In this document: in pieces, positions 1 through 45,780 of the stretch | Layout of the letters: each line of letters begins with the position of its first letter | Numbering within the stretch: the stretch's first letter is position 1 | Source of the DNA: Candidatus Aenigmatarchaeota archaeon | Lineage (GTDB): Archaea > Aenigmatarchaeota > Aenigmatarchaeia > CG10238-14 > SCSR01 | Assembly (NCBI GenBank): GCA_016187415.1 | Contig: JACPJT010000001.1 | Location: 1 to 64,000, forward strand | Reading direction: 5' to 3' | Length of the DNA: 64,000 nucleotides | Position numbers and translations under genes: made by a program | The notes under the pieces: model-generated | What the model was told of the DNA's origin: nothing | Database searches by the model: none | The model's input: only the letters and a program-made list of their open reading frames with translations

Positions 1-793
1 TCGAGACGCTTCAGGATAGGCAGACGCAAGTTAACTGTTGAAGTCTCTAGAGTCTTGTAATGAGGAGAAGGAGATGAATTCAGGAATAGCTCTGCGTATG
101 CGGAGTTTTGCTGATTCCCGGAGTCCGTGAAAATTAAATTCGGAAGGATCCTCCGTGTCCGTACCAAGAACCGTCACAGGTAGACTCGCTGAGAAGGCGA
201 AGGTGTGTTGGGATAACCCAGTTTAAGGAACTCGGCAAATTAGCTGCGTAAGTTCGCGAGAAGCAGTGCCTGTGGTTTTCCGCAAGGGGAACTGCAGGTC
301 GCAGTAACAAGGGAGAGGCGACTGTTTAACAAAAACGCTGGAGACTGCAAGCCTGAAAAGGTTAGTACAGTCTCTGATGTCTGCCCAGTGGTGGTGTGTG
401 AAATGCGGGTTCAACCGTAAGAAGCCCCACTAAACGGTGGCGGTAACTCTGACCGTCGTAAACCGTCTGAAGGGCTTAACGACTTCTCCACTGTCTTGGA
501 CTGGGACCCAGTGAAATTACTATTCAGGTGAATAGGCCTGAGACCTCCTGTGGGAAACGTAGACCCCGTAGAGCTTTACGGTAGTCTGTTGTTGCAGTAC
601 GCTTTTGGCTGCATAGTGTAGGTAGTACTCGCTACTAGGTCTTGCTTGCGGGCAAGACTGAGAGGAAAGTGTAACACTACCCTTTCGAAACTGTATTGCT
701 AACTCGAAAGAAGACAGCATCAGATGGACCGTTCGGCTGGGGCGGTACACCCTTTATAAAGGATCAAGGGTCTCCTAAGGTTTCCTCATCCGG

Positions 794-900
794 GTCATAA
801 TGTGAGTTGCAGTTGCGACTGTGATTGCAACCTTTGATTTTGAAACAATATGATAAGCGAGGTAGCTGATGAGTCGCAGAATTTTCGATTCACATTACCC
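794..900 (+). other. ORF-less 107-nt insertion in 23S rRNA, candidate intron
   Basis: Haloarcula 23S rRNA (recalled) has CCGG-GACAGAGAC-CCGG at this hairpin. Here CATCCGG (787-793) and GACAGAAATCCGG (901-913) are separated by 107 extra bases. The ends are complementary. GGGT (792-795) pairs with ACCC (897-900), and AATGTGA (799-805) pairs with TCACATT (890-896). A 3-nt bulge CAT (796-798) lies on one strand and GAC (901-903) on the other, which is the bulge-helix-bulge layout used by archaeal splicing endonuclease. The cuts that motif predicts would leave two more bases in the hairpin loop than the comparison predicts, so an unspliced expansion segment remains possible. Confidence 0.55.
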
Positions 901-1048
901 GACAGAAATCCGGAGTAGAGTATAAACGCAAAAGGAAGCCTGATTGGATTTCGCCCAGCAAGAAATCCAAACGCGAAAGCGTGGGTTAGCGATACATCGG
1001 TGTCCATTAATGGGTGCCGGTGGTATGAGAAAAGCTACCTCGGGGATA

Positions 1049-1755
1049 TATTAAGTTGGGTTGGCGTTTCTTCAGGGAAATCCACTCCAGTTAGATTTAA
1101 ATATCGAGCAAAGTTACAGTAACTTTCATGGAATCGGAAAAATTCTTTGTGCTGGGTGCTCTTATGGGCGATGGCTGCTTAACAAGCAGGCCTAGTATAG
1201 GAGAATTCACGATTGAATTCGATCAGAAATCTAAGGAATGGTTAGAAATATTGTCTGAAAAATTCCTAAAATATTTCGGGAAAACTTCCGAAATAAGGAA
1301 AACGACAAAAGGATACTTCAGATTAAGAATCCATTCAAAAAAGATTTTTGAGGAATTGCAAGAGATGAAAGCAAGATTCCAAGAAATATTAGTAACTTCT
1401 GACGAATCTTCAAAAATCAAATTTCTACAAGGAATGTTTGATTCTGAAGGAAGCGTTCATAAATCGAAATTTAGAATAACTTTCTCGAGCAAGAGAGATG
1501 CGATAATCAACACGTGCAAATCATTGCTTGAAGAGTTTGGAATATCGACTGGTAAAATTTGGGTTTCCAAAGATGATGTAAAGATTCTTCCTATCTATGG
1601 AAGATGTTGTTTGCGGCTTTTCCAAAACAAAATCGATTTTACACATCCTGAGAAGAAACAAAAACTGAAATTAATCCTAACTTAGTACTCCAAAATGGGC
1701 CCGTGGCCGGTGAAAGCTCACTGCTTTTACTTTATGGGGTCTATTTATTTCCCAG
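1049..1755 (+). mobile_element. Archaeal rRNA intron carrying a homing endonuclease gene
   Basis: The universal peptidyl-transferase strand GGGGATAACAG is broken after GGGGATA (1042-1048). It resumes, in altered form, about 700 bases later before GCGAG (1764-1768). GGGA (1043-1046) can pair with TCCC (1750-1753). Each strand is followed by a possible bulge (TAT at 1047-1049, AGA at 1754-1756), giving predicted cuts after 1048 and 1755. Splicing there would yield GGGGATAAAAGAT. The intron encloses an intact LAGLIDADG reading frame and a perfect hairpin (AAAGTTAC/GTAACTTT, about 1110-1127) just before its start codon. Boundaries are inferred; the insertion itself is clear. Confidence 0.75.
1128..1685 (+). 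CDS. LAGLIDADG homing endonuclease in the 23S rRNA intron
   Basis: This is a 185-residue double-motif LAGLIDADG endonuclease. The first motif is FVLGALMGDGC (residues 7-17) and the second is FLQGMFDSEGS (99-109). Each has its acidic metal-binding residue (D15 and D105 by count). The length is typical of compact monomeric archaeal enzymes such as I-DmoI. Such enzymes cut the intronless rRNA allele so that repair copies the intron in. The frame is intact, so the element may still be mobile. The ATG follows a stable hairpin, which may influence translation from the excised intron. Confidence 0.92.
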   Translation: MESEKFFVLGALMGDGCLTSRPSIGEFTIEFDQKSKEWLEILSEKFLKYFGKTSEIRKTTKGYFRLRIHSKKIFEELQEMKARFQEILVTSDESSKIKFLQGMFDSEGSVHKSKFRITFSSKRDAIINTCKSLLEEFGISTGKIWVSKDDVKILPIYGRCCLRLFQNKIDFTHPEKKQKLKLILT

Positions 1756-2233
1756 AAAGATTTGCGAGTAAATTGACCTGGCGCGTTGGTGCGTCGTTGT
1801 CGGCTCCCCCTCTCCTGGGCGTGCAGTAGCGCCCAAGGGTATAGGTGTCCACTAGTCAAAAGGGGACGTTAGCTGGGTTCAGAACGTTGTGAGACAGTTC
1901 GGTCGCTATCTACAGGAGGTGTAAGTTGTCTGACTGAAAGGATGGTTAAGTACGAAAGGAACATCCGTCCGTGGCCTCTGGTATACCGGTTGTTAATAGC
2001 ATAGCCGGGCAGCTAAGCCATAGTGGATAAGTCCTGAAAGCATCTAAGGACGAAACCACCCGGAAATAATAGACAACTAATCTGATGGCTGGTCCGCAAG
2101 GATCGGTTGTCAGACGAAGACTGCCATAGACGATGGCGTTGATAGGAGAGCGGTGTAAGCACCAAGGATTCGTCCGAGGTGTTCAGCCGGCTCTTACTAA
2201 TCGTTTGAGATTGATGGACCTTTGATAAATGAC

Positions 2234-3085: not shown

Positions 3086-3604
3086 TTAAAATTTGAACAA
3101 TTGTGGGAATTGATTTTGTAATTTCAGGAAAAGTTCTTCGGATGTATTCAAATCATCTTTGTTGTGTTCTTCAATTCCTTTATAATTTCCTATTCTATAG
3201 GACTTTGGAACATTGCTTCCTTTCACTTCTTCAAATGCTCTTTTGATTCCAAATTTATTTAACCAGAAAGTTAAACTCCTGTAGCTGTTGCCCAAGAATT
3301 GGTAAAGATCAAACCATTTCTTATTGTGTAGCATGCTCCAGATTTCCGGTTTCATTTTTCCGATAACTTCTAATCTAGCAATGATAAACGGCACATCAAA
3401 TTTCAAATTATTGTACCCAACTATTATTTCGTCGGAGCTTATGTATCGTAAAACTTTTAGACATTTGAAAATCATTTTTGGTTCGCTTTTAGTTTCCCAT
3501 ATTTTCCATTGGTGTATTTTGTCGTCTTTTTTGAGGCCGATTAAAATAATTTTATCTTCGTAGCCATTCAATCCGAGAGTTTCTATATCGAATGTTACTA
3601 CCAT
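3086..3604 (-). CDS. DEDD-family 3'-5' exonuclease, cas1 neighbour
   Basis: This 172-residue RNase H-fold exonuclease resembles the proofreading domain of family B polymerases. Exo I is the DIE triad in VTFDIETLG near the N-terminus. Exo II is in VGYNNLKFDVPF. Exo III is the final acidic region EEHNKDDLNTSEEL. There is no other domain, so it is a free-standing nuclease. The ATG at 3604 is preferred because it follows a GTGA-type ribosome site; a TTG upstream would overlap the end of cas1. It lies immediately downstream of cas1 and is probably cotranscribed. DnaQ-like DEDDh exonucleases can trim prespacers in some CRISPR adaptation systems, so a similar partnership is plausible but unproven. 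Confidence 0.8.
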   Translation of the reverse strand: MVVTFDIETLGLNGYEDKIILIGLKKDDKIHQWKIWETKSEPKMIFKCLKVLRYISSDEIIVGYNNLKFDVPFIIARLEVIGKMKPEIWSMLHNKKWFDLYQFLGNSYRSLTFWLNKFGIKRAFEEVKGSNVPKSYRIGNYKGIEEHNKDDLNTSEELFLKLQNQFPQLFKF

Positions 3605-3608
3605 ATTC

Positions 3609-4592
3609 TCACTTTTCAACAATCATGAAATTAAGGAAACTCTCCACTTCTTTGGATATCATCTTCTGGAATTTATTAATCTTTTCTTCATGCAATTTTT
3701 GCATTAGTATTTTTACACCAGATTTATTCAGATGAACACCGTCTTTCACTTTTTTAATGTGTTTGCTGGCTTTAAGCACGCTTTTAGTAACCAAACTGAT
3801 TACCACCCAATCAATAAACCAGTGCCTGAACCCTTCCATCATATCAAATGTTAGAAATGGTTTTATTTTATCGGCTTCTCCATGTAGCAATCCATAATAA
3901 GGATTAATGCCGTTTAACCAGAATTCTTTTTCTACAAAGTATCTTAAATAACCATAACCAAAAGATATTGCAGCATTGAACAAATCTTCTGGAGGATTTC
4001 TCGTCCTTAGTCCTTTAAAGCCTATATCCTCTGGTATTACATACTTTAAAGATTCGAAATATAGTCTGGCAGAAAACCCCTCCAAACCCATGAAATGTTT
4101 TCTCAATTCCTCATAATCGCCTTTCAAGAATTTAATTTTCTTTTCAATTCCCCTAATCCGGTTTCTATAGCTTGTGAGAATATCTGCAACACTAGGATTT
4201 GATTTTTTCCTGTTTCTGATTAGTTGTGTAAGTACATCAGCCTTAGCTCTTATGGAATTGAGAACAAACCTTCTAGCAAGAGCTATCTTTTTTCTTTGGT
4301 TTAAGTTCAGTTGCTTTTCCCATAGCTTCCAGATTTTAGGTTTGGTCCATGTCGGTATCAAGTAAATCAACGGGTTACCTGACTTGGAAAGTAGAACCAC
4401 ATCTATATCCCTTTCTACAAGTTCGAGCATGATGGCTTTTGATATCCTACCCTCACCGGCAAGATAGACACCTTTTATATCCCTTAGTTGATATCTAGTC
4501 TCAGTTCCGTTGGCATAAGTAATAACCAAATCTTCCTTCTCCTTACTCACCCTATAACCGAATTCACTTACGAAAACAATTTGGTCATACAC
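3609..4592 (-). CDS. cas1: Cas1 integrase, solo, without Cas2 or a visible CRISPR array
   Basis: 327 residues, normal length for Cas1. An N-terminal beta domain (1-85) precedes the helical catalytic domain. The metal ligands are present: E171 in GLEGFSARLYF, H237 in YYGLLHGEAD, and D250/E253 in TFDMMEGFR, with the typical NAAISFGYGYL helix before them. It should therefore be catalytically competent as a DNA integrase. The start is GTG behind AAGGAG. The next gene is a DEDD exonuclease; cas2, cas4, effector genes, terminal inverted repeats and a polB (as in casposons) were not seen here. It may be an orphan adaptation module, a remnant, or the integrase of an undescribed element. Confidence 0.9.
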   Translation of the reverse strand: MYDQIVFVSEFGYRVSKEKEDLVITYANGTETRYQLRDIKGVYLAGEGRISKAIMLELVERDIDVVLLSKSGNPLIYLIPTWTKPKIWKLWEKQLNLNQRKKIALARRFVLNSIRAKADVLTQLIRNRKKSNPSVADILTSYRNRIRGIEKKIKFLKGDYEELRKHFMGLEGFSARLYFESLKYVIPEDIGFKGLRTRNPPEDLFNAAISFGYGYLRYFVEKEFWLNGINPYYGLLHGEADKIKPFLTFDMMEGFRHWFIDWVVISLVTKSVLKASKHIKKVKDGVHLNKSGVKILMQKLHEEKINKFQKMISKEVESFLNFMIVEK

Positions 4593-20204: not shown

Positions 20205-21536
20205 TTGTACTCTCAAGATATTGAGTCGTTGCTCAACGCCAAGAAGATTAAGATTGGAGATAAAATTTTAGTAACTAAGGTCAATGACGAGTATGCAGGT
20301 ATACTAATGCCCAGAATCAAGCTCGGCGATATTTCTTCAATCGTAATAAAGCTCTCAAACGGCTACAACATAGGCATAAAATATGACAAAGATGTGAAAA
20401 TAAGGCGACTAGAGTCAGGTAAACCAATAAGATTCAAACCAGCCGAAACAGTTCCAAGAAAAGACCCCGAAAAACCTACTGTATCGATATTGGGTTGCGG
20501 CGGAACTATAGCTTCTAGGGTAGAATACACTACAGGAGCGGTATTTCCGGCATTCTCGCCTGCAGACCTGTTATTATCCTTCCCTGAATTGGGGGATATA
20601 GCCAATATTAAGGCTAGAAAGTTATTTGACCTTTTTTCAGAGGATATTACAGCTGAGCATTGGAAAATAATCGCTAACGAGATAATTAAAGAAATACAAT
20701 CTGGTGTTGATGGTGTTGTTCTTATGCATGGTACAGACACTATGCACTATACCGCAGCAGCTTTGAGCTTCATGCTAAGAGATTTACCAGTTCCTGTGAT
20801 TTTGGTAGGCGCGCAGAGAAGTAGTGATCGTGGTAGTAGCGATAATCTTGTTAATCTGGTATCAGCTGTAGTCGCAGCAGCACAATCGAGTGTTGCAGAG
20901 GTTACCGTATGCATGCATGGAAGTATGAACGATGATTTCTGTTATCTGCACCAAGCAACCAAGGTGAGGAAACTTCACACATCCAGAAGAGATGCATTTC
21001 AAAGCGTGAACGTAAAGCCTTATGCAAAAATTTTCTATCCTGACAAAAAAATTGAATATCTGCGAAATGATTACAAACTAAGAGAAAAGAGAACGGTAAA
21101 AATCGATGACAAATTGAATACTAATGTAGCACTAGTTTACACGTATCCTGGAATAAAACCAGAGTTCATACAATCTTTAAGAAATTTTGATGGTGTTGTT
21201 ATTGCAGGTACAGGACTAGGACACGTTCCTACAAATCCAACAGGAGACAAATTCACACAAAGTCTGTTGCCAGCATTAAGAAATTTGATTCATTCTAATA
21301 TCCCCGTTGTAATAGCGCCTCAGACGATATACGGCAGGTTGGATTTGAATATCTATGAAGCTGGACGCATGCTGAATGAAATTGGTGTGATTGGTGATGG
21401 TTGTGACTGGCTCCCCGAAGTTGCTCTCGTGAAACTAATGTTTGTATTAGGAAAGACCAAAGATATGGATAAAGTCAGGGAAATGATGTTGACGAACTAT
21501 GCAGGCGAGATAAGCGAGAGAACTGAAATAAGTTGA
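20205..21536 (+). CDS. gatD: Glu-tRNA(Gln) amidotransferase subunit D
   Basis: 443 residues. The N-terminal beta-barrel (1-80) is followed by an asparaginase-type domain. Catalytic motifs are GCGGTIASRVEY (first Thr), LMHGTDTMHYTAAAL (Thr-Asp) and TKVRKLHTSRRDAF (Lys region). GatD hydrolyses glutamine and passes ammonia to GatE for archaeal Gln-tRNA formation. The start is TTG at 20205, the only suitable codon near the expected N-terminus. gatE would normally follow directly; here a homing endonuclease gene lies between. Confidence 0.95.
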   Translation: MYSQDIESLLNAKKIKIGDKILVTKVNDEYAGILMPRIKLGDISSIVIKLSNGYNIGIKYDKDVKIRRLESGKPIRFKPAETVPRKDPEKPTVSILGCGGTIASRVEYTTGAVFPAFSPADLLLSFPELGDIANIKARKLFDLFSEDITAEHWKIIANEIIKEIQSGVDGVVLMHGTDTMHYTAAALSFMLRDLPVPVILVGAQRSSDRGSSDNLVNLVSAVVAAAQSSVAEVTVCMHGSMNDDFCYLHQATKVRKLHTSRRDAFQSVNVKPYAKIFYPDKKIEYLRNDYKLREKRTVKIDDKLNTNVALVYTYPGIKPEFIQSLRNFDGVVIAGTGLGHVPTNPTGDKFTQSLLPALRNLIHSNIPVVIAPQTIYGRLDLNIYEAGRMLNEIGVIGDGCDWLPEVALVKLMFVLGKTKDMDKVREMMLTNYAGEISERTEIS

Positions 21537-21540
21537 TATT

Positions 21541-22959
21541 ATGGAAGCTAAAATTGGGATTACAGACGGGAAACAGGCTTGGTTAAACCATTCTAATCAA
21601 AACCAAGTTTATTTTGCTTCCTTTAAAAAACATGTGGGAAATGACCTCCTCCGAAAAGAGGATATGCTATTATTGGTAAATTACATGAGAAAGGTGATGT
21701 TAGATGGACAATCTAAATTTAAAGCAGAGCTAACGCCAGAAGTTATTAGAAGACTCTATTGGGAAGATAAGAAATCGTTGCCAGAGATAGGAAAACTCTA
21801 CAGAATTGACAGCGGTAGCTTGTATCGATGGATGAAACAACATGGAATACACACTAGGAGTAAATTAGTTGCTGCTCAGCTACATAAAAAATTAACAATT
21901 CGCCCAGATAAGTTATATGAGTTATATTGGAAAAAGTCAATGACGACAAGTGAAATAGGAAAATTATATGACGTATCAGGTGCAGCCGTTCAGCATTTAA
22001 TGCTTAAGCACAAAATACCTACACGAACTCCTTTACAAATTGGCTCGTCTAAAACAAAATCCCCATCTTACAAAATACTCCATCATTTGTACATAGTTGA
22101 ACGAAAATCGACCATAAAAATAGGAAAACAATTAGGTGTTGCACAAGCCTCTGTACGTAAATGGCTGAAGAAATATAAAATATCTGTTAGAAGTCGCTCT
22201 GAAGCGTGCAGAGAATACACGAGAACATCCTTTTCAGGAGATAAAACTGAGAAATCTTATATGCTTGGATTTTGCGTTGGTGACGCATACGTTTCTAAAC
22301 GTTACCAGAGTATAGATATACATACAACAACTACACATCCAGCGATGATCAAACTTTTTCATACAACATTTTCAGGATACGGTCACCCTTCGAAGTATGC
22401 TAGAAGCGGTACTCTACAATATGAATGGGCACTTCGATGCAGTTTAGATCAATCATTTTCATTTCTTTTAGAAAAATACAAAAGATTGATACCAGATTGG
22501 GTTCTTGAAGACGATACTACTTTTTATTCATTCTTAGCAGGCTATGCGGATGCTGAAGGTTGCTGGATGGTAATTAAATCGCATAAGGACGGCATAGGAG
22601 CTTTATTCGAAATTCGGAGTAGAGATGTAAAAGTTTTAGAAACAATCAAAGCGGAATTAGAAAAGTACGACTATCATCCTACTTTTGGTTTATGCAGTGG
22701 GTCGCTACATTTTGTACGTTTGTCTAGAGCCAGTGAAATTAGAGAACTTGCTAAAAAATTACTCTCATTTTCTAAACATGACGAGAAAATAGAAAAAATG
22801 CAGTTCATTCTTGATATCGAAAAAGAGAAAAGTTGGTCTGAAATTAGACCTAAATTACTAGAATTAAAAGACAAAATTAGGAGTCAAGTTCTTGGGTGTG
22901 TACTGAAAGCTGAAGGCTTGTATAAAGAGAAACAAAGAATGGAGGTGATGCAACTTTGA
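21541..22959 (+). CDS. LAGLIDADG homing endonuclease with HTH repeats, between gatD and gatE
   Basis: 472 residues. Three helix-turn-helix units occupy the N-terminal half (around 62-105, 120-165 and 178-222; for example SLPEIGKLYRIDSGSLYRW and TTSEIGKLYDVSGAAVQ). A two-motif LAGLIDADG domain follows: MLGFCVGDAYV (about 240-250) and FLAGYADAEGCW (about 331-342). The ATG is 4 nt after the gatD stop. The last codons overlap the TTG start of gatE and contain GGAGGTGA, which serves as the gatE ribosome site. It is not inside an intron, yet it lies 44 nt from a 17-nt intron in gatE. Confidence 0.93.
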   Translation: MEAKIGITDGKQAWLNHSNQNQVYFASFKKHVGNDLLRKEDMLLLVNYMRKVMLDGQSKFKAELTPEVIRRLYWEDKKSLPEIGKLYRIDSGSLYRWMKQHGIHTRSKLVAAQLHKKLTIRPDKLYELYWKKSMTTSEIGKLYDVSGAAVQHLMLKHKIPTRTPLQIGSSKTKSPSYKILHHLYIVERKSTIKIGKQLGVAQASVRKWLKKYKISVRSRSEACREYTRTSFSGDKTEKSYMLGFCVGDAYVSKRYQSIDIHTTTTHPAMIKLFHTTFSGYGHPSKYARSGTLQYEWALRCSLDQSFSFLLEKYKRLIPDWVLEDDTTFYSFLAGYADAEGCWMVIKSHKDGIGALFEIRSRDVKVLETIKAELEKYDYHPTFGLCSGSLHFVRLSRASEIRELAKKLLSFSKHDEKIEKMQFILDIEKEKSWSEIRPKLLELKDKIRSQVLGCVLKAEGLYKEKQRMEVMQL

Positions 22960-24421
22960 GAAATATTAATTACAAAAGTATCAGGCTGAAGGCTGGACTC
23001 GAAAGTTAACAACCGGGTAAATCCACCAACAGCTTGAGGTAAATCGAAAACTTTTCTGTAGTTGTTCTACAGCTATGAAGGAAAAAGTACCTATCATGAC
23101 AATATCTAGACGTCAACACCCAGTTGCATCGGAAATGGGCTTGATAGACACAGCTGCGCAATTTGAATATTTACGCGATAGAACTTTCCATTACCAAGTG
23201 TTCAACAATGAAAATTGTCTCGTTGAAGTTGATTGTGAACCACCACACAATTTGAATCCTGAGGCTTTAGAGATTGCTCTACAAATTGCACTATTGCTCA
23301 ATTGCGAGATTCTAAATGAGATTCATGTCATGAGAAAAACTGTTATTGACGGCAGTAATACAAGCGGATTTCAACGTACGGTAATTGTAGGATTAAACGG
23401 TCACATTAGTTACAAAGGTAAAAGAATTCTGATAACACAGGTAACTTTGGAAGAAGACGCAGCAGCGATTGTCGATGAAGAGAATGGTAAAGTGGTGTAT
23501 CGATTAAATCGCCTAGGGGTTCCATTGGTAGAAATTGACACAGGAATTCTGGAAGGATACTCACCTCAAGAAATCCAAGAGATTGCCTATTTAATTGGTA
23601 TAATAGCTCGTTCAACAACTAAAACAAAACATGGCATAGGTTCAATCAGGCAGGATGTCAATGTCAGCATAAGAAACGGACCGAGAGTAGAGGTTAAAGG
23701 CATGCAAGAATTGGGCATGCTGGCGAAGGTTGTTGAATTGGAAGCCCAGAGACAAACGAAGGAGAAAATCAAAGAAGAAACCCGTGCGGCAAACCCCGAC
23801 GGTACGACAAGGTTTCTAAGACCTTTGCCCGGAGCCAGCAGGATGTATCCCGAGACCGATATACCGCCTGTGGTGCTTTCGAAGGAATACATCGATGAAA
23901 TCAAAAAGAGTTTGCCAGAGCCTTGGACGAACAAAATTGAACGATTCAAATCCAAATTAAAATTGCCCGATGTGCTGGCAAAGGAAATACTTGGATCAGA
24001 ATATCTTGATTTGTTTGAAAGGATTGTCGCCAAAACGAAAGTGGATCCCACTATTGTTGCTAACACATTTGTATCAGTTGTCAAGGATTTGGTTCGAAGG
24101 GAGAAAGTGGAGATTAACAGGATACAGGAGCACAGGTTCTTCGAACTTTTCGAGTCTCTAGGGGAAAAGAAATTCGTCAAGGAAGCGATGCCTGAGATTA
24201 TAAAATATCTTGCGGCATATCCGCAGAATGGTGTAGCTGATGCGCTGAATGAATTGGATTTGAAGCCGATGACATCAGAAGAAGTTCGTGAAATTGCGAA
24301 AGGAATTCTTACGCAACCAAATATGCCATTCGAAAAAGCATACGGGATTGTTATGAGCAAGGTTAGAGGGAAGATAGATGCTCAGGAAGTCATGAAGATT
24401 GTCAAGAGTATGGTCAAATAG
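22956..24421 (+). CDS. gatE: Glu-tRNA(Gln) amidotransferase subunit E, split by a 17-nt intron
   Basis: Exon 1 is 22956-23003: TTG start behind GGAGGTGA, 16 codons ending YKSIRLKAGLE. Exon 2 is 23021-24421, opening IHQQLEVNRKLFCSCST in frame. Joined, they restore the invariant GLEIHQQL motif and the zinc-site Cys pair of the GatE kinase-like core. Unspliced, a TAA follows two codons into the insertion. Downstream are the hallmarks MRKTVIDGSNTSGFQRT, LEEDAAA, GTIRQD-type IRQDVNVSI and the tail domain. The stop overlaps the convergent SET gene by 8 nt. Codon use appears AT-richer in the first ~600 bases than in the rest, suggesting a mosaic gene. Confidence 0.93.
23004..23020 (+). other. 17-nt bulge-helix-bulge intron in gatE
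   Basis: Removal of these 17 bases exactly joins GAA to ATC. The fold is: outer helix TGG (22994-22996) with CCA (23023-23025); central helix ACTCG (22997-23001) with CGGGT (23014-23018), containing one T-G pair; bulge AAA (23002-23004); inner helix GTT (23005-23007) with AAC (23011-23013), loop AAC; second bulge AAAT (23019-23022). Archaeal splicing endonuclease cuts after the second bulge base, which on both strands gives exactly the boundary required by the protein. Confidence 0.82.
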
Positions 24422-45655: not shown

Positions 45656-45746
45656 GCTCAGGTGGCAGAACGGCTATGCAGACTAGATTATCTAGGCAGA
45701 AGCGCCTGCAGAGCGTCGCAAGCGAGTTCGACTCTCGCCCTGAGCT
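45656..45746 (+). tRNA. tRNA-Cys (GCA) with a 20-nt intron
   Basis: The acceptor GCTCAGG pairs perfectly with CCTGAGC and the discriminator is T, as cysteinyl-tRNA synthetase requires. The D arm is GCAGAACGGCTATGC, the anticodon loop CTGCAGA carries GCA, and the T arm is GCGAG-TTCGACT-CTCGC. Without the insertion (45683-45702 or 45684-45703) the anticodon stem is perfect, GACGC with GCGTC, and the mature tRNA is 71 nt. The intron therefore lies at 28/29 or 29/30, not at the usual 37/38. No CCA encoded. The CysRS gene starts 34 nt downstream. Confidence 0.92.
45683..45702 (+). other. Non-canonical intron of tRNA-Cys
   Basis: 20 bases, CTAGATTATCTAGGCAGAAG, between positions 28 and 29 of the anticodon stem (a shift by one base is equivalent). 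The first 13 bases form a hairpin CTAGA-TTA-TCTAG. I could not draw a standard bulge-helix-bulge around it, so the splice sites rest on the restored cloverleaf. Confidence 0.8.
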
Positions 45747-45780
45747 CAATAATTTAATTTAAAACCGTCAATTACTCATA

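Follow-up and report, generated by a model that had tools for sequence, protein, structure and literature searches.

A predicted 17-nucleotide bulge-helix-bulge intron in archaeal gatE and the upstream LAGLIDADG-type endonuclease gene as a likely homing pair

Introduction

Among the introns of archaeal protein-coding genes, those of cbf5 in Crenarchaeota are the closest described counterpart of the one reported here. As set out in the available part of a 2009 study, they measure 16–44 bp, often have a relaxed bulge-helix-bulge (BHB) motif and are of unclear origin; splicing was at that time confirmed in no archaeal gene beyond cbf5, introns elsewhere being only predicted (PMC2738675). Its authors suggested a descent from endonuclease-bearing introns, for which an intron that includes coding sequence would be the proof, and noted that archaeal rRNA BHB introns can hold an endonuclease gene inside (PMC2738675). 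A different arrangement is found in phages, where the endonuclease of collaborative homing is free-standing and cleaves gene copies that lack the intron, and a group I intron blocks self-cleavage (PMC6083498, PMC10448857, as far as their accessible text goes). Yeast WHO elements are described, in the part of the report at hand, as replacing the end of the gene they target (PMC7282813).

The gatE gene of an uncultured Candidatus Aenigmatarchaeota archaeon, which serves the synthesis of Gln-tRNA, has features of each of these systems. As in cbf5, the intron is short, its BHB motif is relaxed and it lies in a region of catalytic codons in an essential gene; the gene and the phyla differ, however, the accessible text mentions no endonuclease linked to cbf5, and splicing was reported for the first cbf5 examples, whereas that of gatE is predicted (PMC2738675). 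Like the archaeal rRNA introns it is tied to a LAGLIDADG-type gene (PMC2738675, available part), but here that gene precedes exon 1 instead of sitting within the intron, and the intron's host is a protein-coding gene. An endonuclease gene beside the split gene and outside the intron is also seen in the F-CphI/psbA system of cyanophages (PMC6083498) and in the HEG of the phage terminase N-terminal exon (PMC10448857); as presented in the text at our disposal, these involve group I introns, in contrast to the BHB mini-intron, archaeal chromosome, LAGLIDADG-type protein and predicted cleavage of the gatE case. As in yeast WHO elements, the endonuclease gene adjoins one end of a housekeeping gene that is conserved, but protection of the gat loci would come from the intron and not from recoding (PMC7282813, in part). 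Among titles and abstract beginnings of the open-licence literature, we found no report that connects collaborative homing with archaea or BHB introns; each half of the arrangement is already known, and the combination appears new.

Results

The window, a stretch of 64,000 nucleotides from a metagenome assembly (contig JACPJT010000001.1), contains gatD, an endonuclease gene and gatE consecutively on the + strand (Table 1). Exactly 17 bases, AGTTAACAACCGGGTAA, interrupt gatE between the codons for GLE and IHQQ, with one stop in the frame of exon 1 and another in that of exon 2. Exon 1 comprises 16 codons from TTG to GAA, with the product LRNINYKSIRLKAGLE, and exon 2 begins with IHQQLEVNRKLFCSC, translated IHQQL. 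Once the 17 bases are removed, the frame is open for 482 residues, in line with the 481–486 residues of those GatE records among the 30 closest (P0055–P0084) that are full-length. This confirms what the preliminary description had seen, namely KAGLE and IHQQL separated by 17 bases with an in-frame stop. It had also held that the protein requires these exact boundaries, with which the sequence is consistent, but the protein fixes them only within four equivalent positions because A's repeat at the junction. We consider it very probable that the 17 bases are a spliced BHB intron. The predicted mRNA would then have GGACTCGAA joined to ATCCACC, and GatE would read KAGLEIHQQLEVNR across the junction.

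Table 1. Features at the gatE locus, in positions of the window
Feature	Position	Strand	Remarks
gatD	20205–21536	+	Pfam GatD_N, Asparaginase; upstream, same operon
Endonuclease gene, LAGLIDADG-type, 472 codons	21541–22959	+	Motifs, profile matches
gatE exon 1	22956–23003	+	TTG start after GGAGGTGAT; overlaps endonuclease stop
Predicted BHB intron, 17 nt, AGTTAACAACCGGGTAA	23004–23020	+	
gatE exon 2, IHQQL... to stop	23021–24421	+	Pfam GatB_N, GatB_Yqey
Predicted homing target, left half TGGACTCGAA	22994–23003	+	Also BHB outer strand TGG, central ACTCG, bulge AA
Predicted homing target, right half ATCCACCAACAG	23021–23032	+	CCA closes BHB outer helix

The comparison with gatE of related genomes that the preliminary description had proposed was carried out. 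The insert is missing in all 28 relatives whose N-termini were compared base by base, which have an uninterrupted G-L/I/F-E followed by I/L/V-H. At a threshold of E 1e-20, GatE matches were obtained in 140 of the 156 genomes of the phylum set. Judged by match coordinates for all but the 28 read, the match extends from residue 1–12 across the insertion site in 136 of the 139 other genomes, and in three (G035, G043 and G147) it is cut by contig ends, so that the site is not assessable; only in the source genome does it begin at residue 16, with a stop. Two apparent signs of further inserts were discarded: the stop within the G005 match falls between gatD and gatE, and a short GatE record alone does not point to an intron, P0165 starting as L009 does from its inner ATG onward, and L009 being uninterrupted.

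A damaged gatE, a sequencing error, or translation from the ATG at 23075 without the first residues would do away with the intron, and we regard this as highly improbable. An open frame of 448 codons does start at this ATG, and the origin of the sequence from a metagenome assembly is a caveat on the insert, but a GatE shortened in this way would have lost the motif kept in 28 of 28 relatives read, and the rest of the gatE frame is intact, with 79% identity to a same-genus gatE. Moreover, two more contigs, neither longer than 3,814 bases, encode a GatE identical to that of the window for which the N-terminus was again missed in gene calling (P0053), and the endonuclease is likewise recorded on two contigs (P0001), which argues indirectly against a single assembly error. 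The canonical BHB at the identical residue of a gatB gene (see below) would have to be a coincidence. Programmed ribosomal bypass would accommodate an insert that breaks the frame and contains a stop. It needs matching take-off and landing codons, but the GAA before the insert and the TAA just ahead of ATC do not match, and it is the BHB that fits the insert borders instead; the probability of bypass is close to nil.

The BHB of the gatE intron consists of the helices TGG/CCA, ACTCG/CGGGT and GTT/AAC and the bulges AAA and AAAT, each of which would be cut after its second base. In a relaxed scan in exact register, 921 of 200,000 shuffled introns fit equally well. A standard cut at both borders, as claimed in the preliminary description, holds with a central helix of 5 bp and the AAAT bulge, but the intron does not fit the strict 3-4-3 motif because this 3' bulge has four bases and not three. 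The three helices named there are recovered in the relaxed scan; of these, only the outer and central ones appear in the minimum-energy fold, from which the inner GTT/AAC is absent. Fold energy was not significant, the gatE piece being equalled or exceeded in stability by 30 of 200 shuffles, and was dropped as evidence in favor of the exact-register shuffles. Taken alone, the gatE fold is suggestive and only fairly convincing, and it is the comparison with gatB given below, more than the fold alone, that supports the BHB intron. Its description as one of the smallest known introns is reasonable, although the cbf5 introns start at 16 bp in the accessible text (PMC2738675), and ARAGORN predicts introns of 10–15 bases in seven tRNA genes of the source genome. 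When borders were set by hand, 2 of 10 tRNA introns (Tyr and Arg), whose borders are uncertain, fit a mismatch-free BHB scan, and no conclusion was based on this result.

The source genome has one PF01974 gene for EndA, the tRNA-splicing endonuclease, at C6:109708 (E 2.6e-28); its presence and the seven predicted tRNA introns count in favor of the homing pair proposed below. The 189-aa protein has its best E-value with 5x89 and can be aligned with 1a79 along almost all of its length (E 2.9e-30), so that it looks like the single-subunit enzyme of the M. jannaschii type. Relaxed motifs outside tRNA have been called typical of hetero-tetrameric enzymes (PMC2738675, available part), and the combination of a relaxed gatE motif with a single-subunit-like EndA was counted against the reading as a spliced intron in a homing pair. 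Relative to 1a79, the host EndA has a six-residue, lysine-bearing insertion just before EH. Lysine-bearing loops are said, in the part of PMC12397907 available to us, to widen specificity in two other EndA types, and our guess by analogy is that the insertion may do the same here.

The preliminary description was right about the insert and its BHB reading but overlooked the endonuclease gene directly upstream. In the window, the frames of this gene and of gatE are separate and overlap by four bases (22956–22959). Its product has helix-turn-helix repeats in the N-terminal half and two LAGLIDADG-like motifs, LGFCVGD and LAGYADAEG. Both stretches have invariant acidic residues in an alignment of 15 proteins, made up of the window's endonuclease and 14 relatives, and the profile of these 15 members matches I-AniI, I-HjeMI and I-AabMI (E 3e-9 to 4e-3; I-AniI 3.2e-9). 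The LAGLIDADG_3 domain was found in 11 of the 15, the window's own protein not being among them. By these motifs and the family's domain, the upstream protein classifies as a predicted LAGLIDADG homing endonuclease.

When genome contigs were scanned with the window protein alone, no relative was confirmed; the 15-protein alignment yielded 14 loci. None was confirmed on viral contigs. Within the phylum set, relatives occur in 16 of 156 genomes, including the source genome. Those whose neighbors were named, from translations, adjoin the ends of conserved genes: they lie between pheS and pheT (L068, L072), before metG (L069, L070, L074), and at the 3' ends of rtcB (L075–L078) and of a membrane pyrophosphatase gene (L065). 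At such other genes, no obvious mini-intron was present in the 10 gene ends read, which we counted against a pairing of endonuclease and intron. A displaced copy of the neighboring gene end was detected beyond the endonuclease gene in 5 of 36 stretches (L065, L069, L079, L083 and L098), the remaining hits being judged chance (low complexity, repeats within one gene). The likeness of the endonuclease start, MKINPK, to the GatE start, MxKINYK, is too short to count.

Displaced ends are also a mark of yeast WHO elements (PMC7282813, in part), and a related endonuclease might have swapped the target end for a recoded, resistant copy, making the 17 bases incidental. However, neither the window nor the gatB locus described next has a displaced gatE or gatB end at E 1e-3, although this threshold might overlook a remnant of about 16 codons. 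Nor is the split site recoded: it retains both halves of the target. A swap of this kind is therefore very unlikely.

The closest of the 14 loci, on contig JASEJC010000010.1 (L080), belongs to another archaeal phylum and encodes an endonuclease 49% identical to that of the window. The gene order is gatA (1578–2960), the endonuclease gene (3275–4570) and gatB, the two gat genes having been identified from translations. GatB is a paralogue of GatE, and its gene has an insert at the identical residue, the GLE-IHQQ junction: GGACTCGAG is followed by the 29 bases AGTTGTGTGTAAAATCACATAACCGAGTC (4559–4587) and these by ATCCACCAACAG. This intron has a canonical BHB with the helices TGGA/TCCA and CTCG/CGAG, the bulges AGA and TCA and an inner helix of 8 bp, a fit matched by none of 200,000 shuffled introns. 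Its energy fold contains the central and inner helices and is stabler than 200 of 200 shuffles for a 58-nt piece and 190 of 200 for an 89-nt piece. If each bulge is cut behind its second base, GGA CTC GAG is joined to ATC CAC CAA CAG. Both the gatE and the gatB intron start with AGTT and include AACCGRG near the end.

Within the class of L080, 24 of 27 genomes gave a gatB match, and the insert was seen in none of the 22 gatB sequences read, from 21 genomes; one further sequence, G180, is represented by a match that starts at residue 3, and the match of G163 is too distant to judge. The endonuclease frame of L080 passes through gatB exon 1 and stops inside the intron, and upon removal of the intron it continues into GatB, stop-free, for 879 residues. 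The endonuclease would thus come from unspliced RNA, and an 879-residue fusion with GatB from spliced RNA, unless GatB starts inside this frame. EndA was not found in the L080 genome, which also counted against the pairing.

Window gatE and L080 gatB have 20 of 21 bases in common around the insertion point. Beyond this island they diverge, differing at 18 of 24 upstream and 22 of 39 downstream bases. For 616 intronless gatE-gatB pairs, a mean of 13.3 of the 21 bases are shared (maximum 18), corresponding to 7.7 differences (minimum 3). The split genes differ from intronless copies of their own kind in 4–11 of the 21 bases for gatE and in 3–8 for gatB, and within the two intronless groups together at most one difference was seen in 8 of 1,225 pairs. 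The two split genes have in common a 22-bp stretch, TGGACTCGAR ATCCACCAACAG, centered on the insertion point; a LAGLIDADG target is expected to be about 22 bp in size. The island is indirect support for cutting of the intronless gene and its prevention by the intron. Part of it is also required by the BHB: a 4-bp outer helix would be possible at only 4 of 50 intronless sites, and target conservation and the need for a BHB are not fully separable as its possible causes. A search for the split-site pattern in 156 genomes returned the source genome and one match in G105; the reversed control pattern occurred in 3 genomes.

The ends of further endonuclease proteins point to more cases. Four that are 87–91% identical to the L080 gene (P0005, P0006, P0007 and P0173) end in GL(R/K)IGLESCV, which, from the protein ends only, corresponds to gatB exon 1 and the three codons that open the L080 intron. 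Two others (P0174 and P0177) end in EVEGWTRKPLI(D/G)RAYPPATGQP; in a shifted frame this would fit M-E-K-x-D-Y-N-K-L-R-L-K-A-G-L-E followed by an insert of 21 nt and by I-H-Q-Q. With a length that is a multiple of three, such an insert need not be spliced. The endonuclease P0002 is 84% identical to that of the window, with a similar end (MEVRQL versus MEVMQL), and presumably shares a contig with the N-terminally short GatE P0061, both being on contigs of 44,488 bases. Three more distant endonucleases (37–45% identical), P0010, P0011 and P0012, are on contigs sized as those of the uninterrupted GatE records P0073, P0074 and P0070. Either these have another target or the pairing can break; their apparent place beside an uninterrupted gatE was counted against the pairing.

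Discussion

In both the window and L080, an endonuclease gene stands free beside a gene split by a probable intron; two separate lineages, one with gatE and the other with gatB, combine these features at the same site. In these sequences, the upstream gene and the L080 pair are the decisive evidence, rather than the gatE fold. Since the endonuclease gene lies directly upstream and the pair recurs in L080 gatB, the gatE intron and the endonuclease likely spread together as a homing pair. For such a pair we infer splicing, cleavage, shielding and joint transfer. The endonuclease would cut an intronless gat gene near TGGACTCGAR/ATCCACCAACAG, within the codons of the conserved GLE-IHQQ motif, and repair from a donor copy would bring in the endonuclease gene, which sits just before the short exon 1, together with the mini-intron. 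As the intron would split the target site, the new copy would escape further cutting; EndA would cut at the BHB to release the intron, with a ligase sealing the exons, and GatE would remain unchanged. The gat loci, where no displaced gene end turned up, have a mini-intron in its stead. The motif may be too constrained for recoding, so that the intron would protect the copy at no change to the protein.

Alternatively, the BHB mini-intron is spliced and the endonuclease is a separate insertion in the neighborhood without a functional link. Relatives of the endonuclease at other gene ends with no obvious mini-intron, P0010–P0012 apparently near uninterrupted gatE, and cbf5 introns that occur without an endonuclease in the available part of PMC2738675 all agree with this possibility. 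It would, however, require two rare features to have met by chance twice, once at gatE and once at gatB, in different phyla but at the identical residue and in identical order; both features are missing in the relatives read, and we consider this possibility rather unlikely.

We incline to a broader form of the homing pair, in which endonuclease and separate BHB mini-intron are a mobile unit that moves between phyla and between the paralogues gatE and gatB, with the intron as immunity and the tRNA-splicing enzyme as repair; this would be one origin of archaeal mRNA introns. With the gene next door, what was a curiosity becomes a likely mobile pair: a short mRNA intron beside its probable mobility gene, seen in two paralogous genes of translation and in two phyla. 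The origin of an mRNA intron becomes testable with two purified proteins. If true, collaborative homing is not confined to the group I introns of phages but includes introns that a protein enzyme excises. For annotation, gene callers can silently lose the starts of genes split in this way.

As a separate observation, the 23S rRNA gene of the window seems to have a BHB intron with a LAGLIDADG-type gene inside it.

Endonuclease relatives at gat and other genes

Beyond the relatives of the window's LAGLIDADG-type endonuclease at five loci in other genomes lies a displaced copy of the end of the neighboring gene (see table). These loci are WHO-like homing elements in archaea, resembling the yeast elements that replace the end of their target gene.

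Distant endonucleases near gatE (P0001, P0002, and P0010–P0012) have in common an N-terminal stretch, KHVGN(D/E)xLRK, which is encoded within 21541–21750 of the window. At L080 (3275–5943), a locus from another archaeal phylum, gatB exon 1 is fused to the endonuclease frame, and a fusion of 879 residues would be encoded if the mRNA were spliced.

In genome G150, a partial second gatE copy with two stops is found shortly upstream of the intact gatE (L127; G150:C11:18800–21400). Separately, at L075, L076, L077, and L078, endonuclease relatives sit in convergent orientation at the 3' end of a putative rtcB, the tRNA-splicing ligase gene.

Predicted introns in rRNA and tRNA genes

The 23S rRNA gene of the window is about 800 bases longer in span than its model positions, and its internal ORF displays two LAGLIDADG-like motifs, LGALMGDG and FLQGMFDSEG; the gene probably contains a classic rRNA intron enclosing its own endonuclease gene.

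Among the tRNA genes of the host genome, G000 (loci L035–L063), ARAGORN predicted introns of 10–15 bases in seven, of 6 bases in tRNA-Gln(TTG), and of 34–40 bases in four others. The tRNA gene at L001 perhaps carries an unusual intron, since ARAGORN cannot read it. The window's predicted tRNA with a stop anticodon is absent from Rfam matches at gathering score.

Features of the window and of the compared loci
Feature	Locus	Position	Strand	Remark
23S rRNA gene	window	1-2220	+	internal ORF at 1128-1685
tRNA, class-II-sized, anticodon TTA (stop)	window	45656-45747	+	ARAGORN
Endonuclease-like ORF	L001 (G000:C6)	252-1211		frame overlapped by tRNA gene
tRNA gene, 111 bases	L001 (G000:C6)	268-378		unreadable by ARAGORN
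EndA (tRNA-splicing endonuclease) gene of host	L001 (G000:C6)	1237-1806		tRNA gene and endonuclease-like ORF directly upstream
Displaced gene end	L065			pyrophosphatase
Displaced gene end	L069			metG
Displaced gene end	L079			NifU-like
Displaced gene end	L083			gene without name
Displaced gene end	L098			metG
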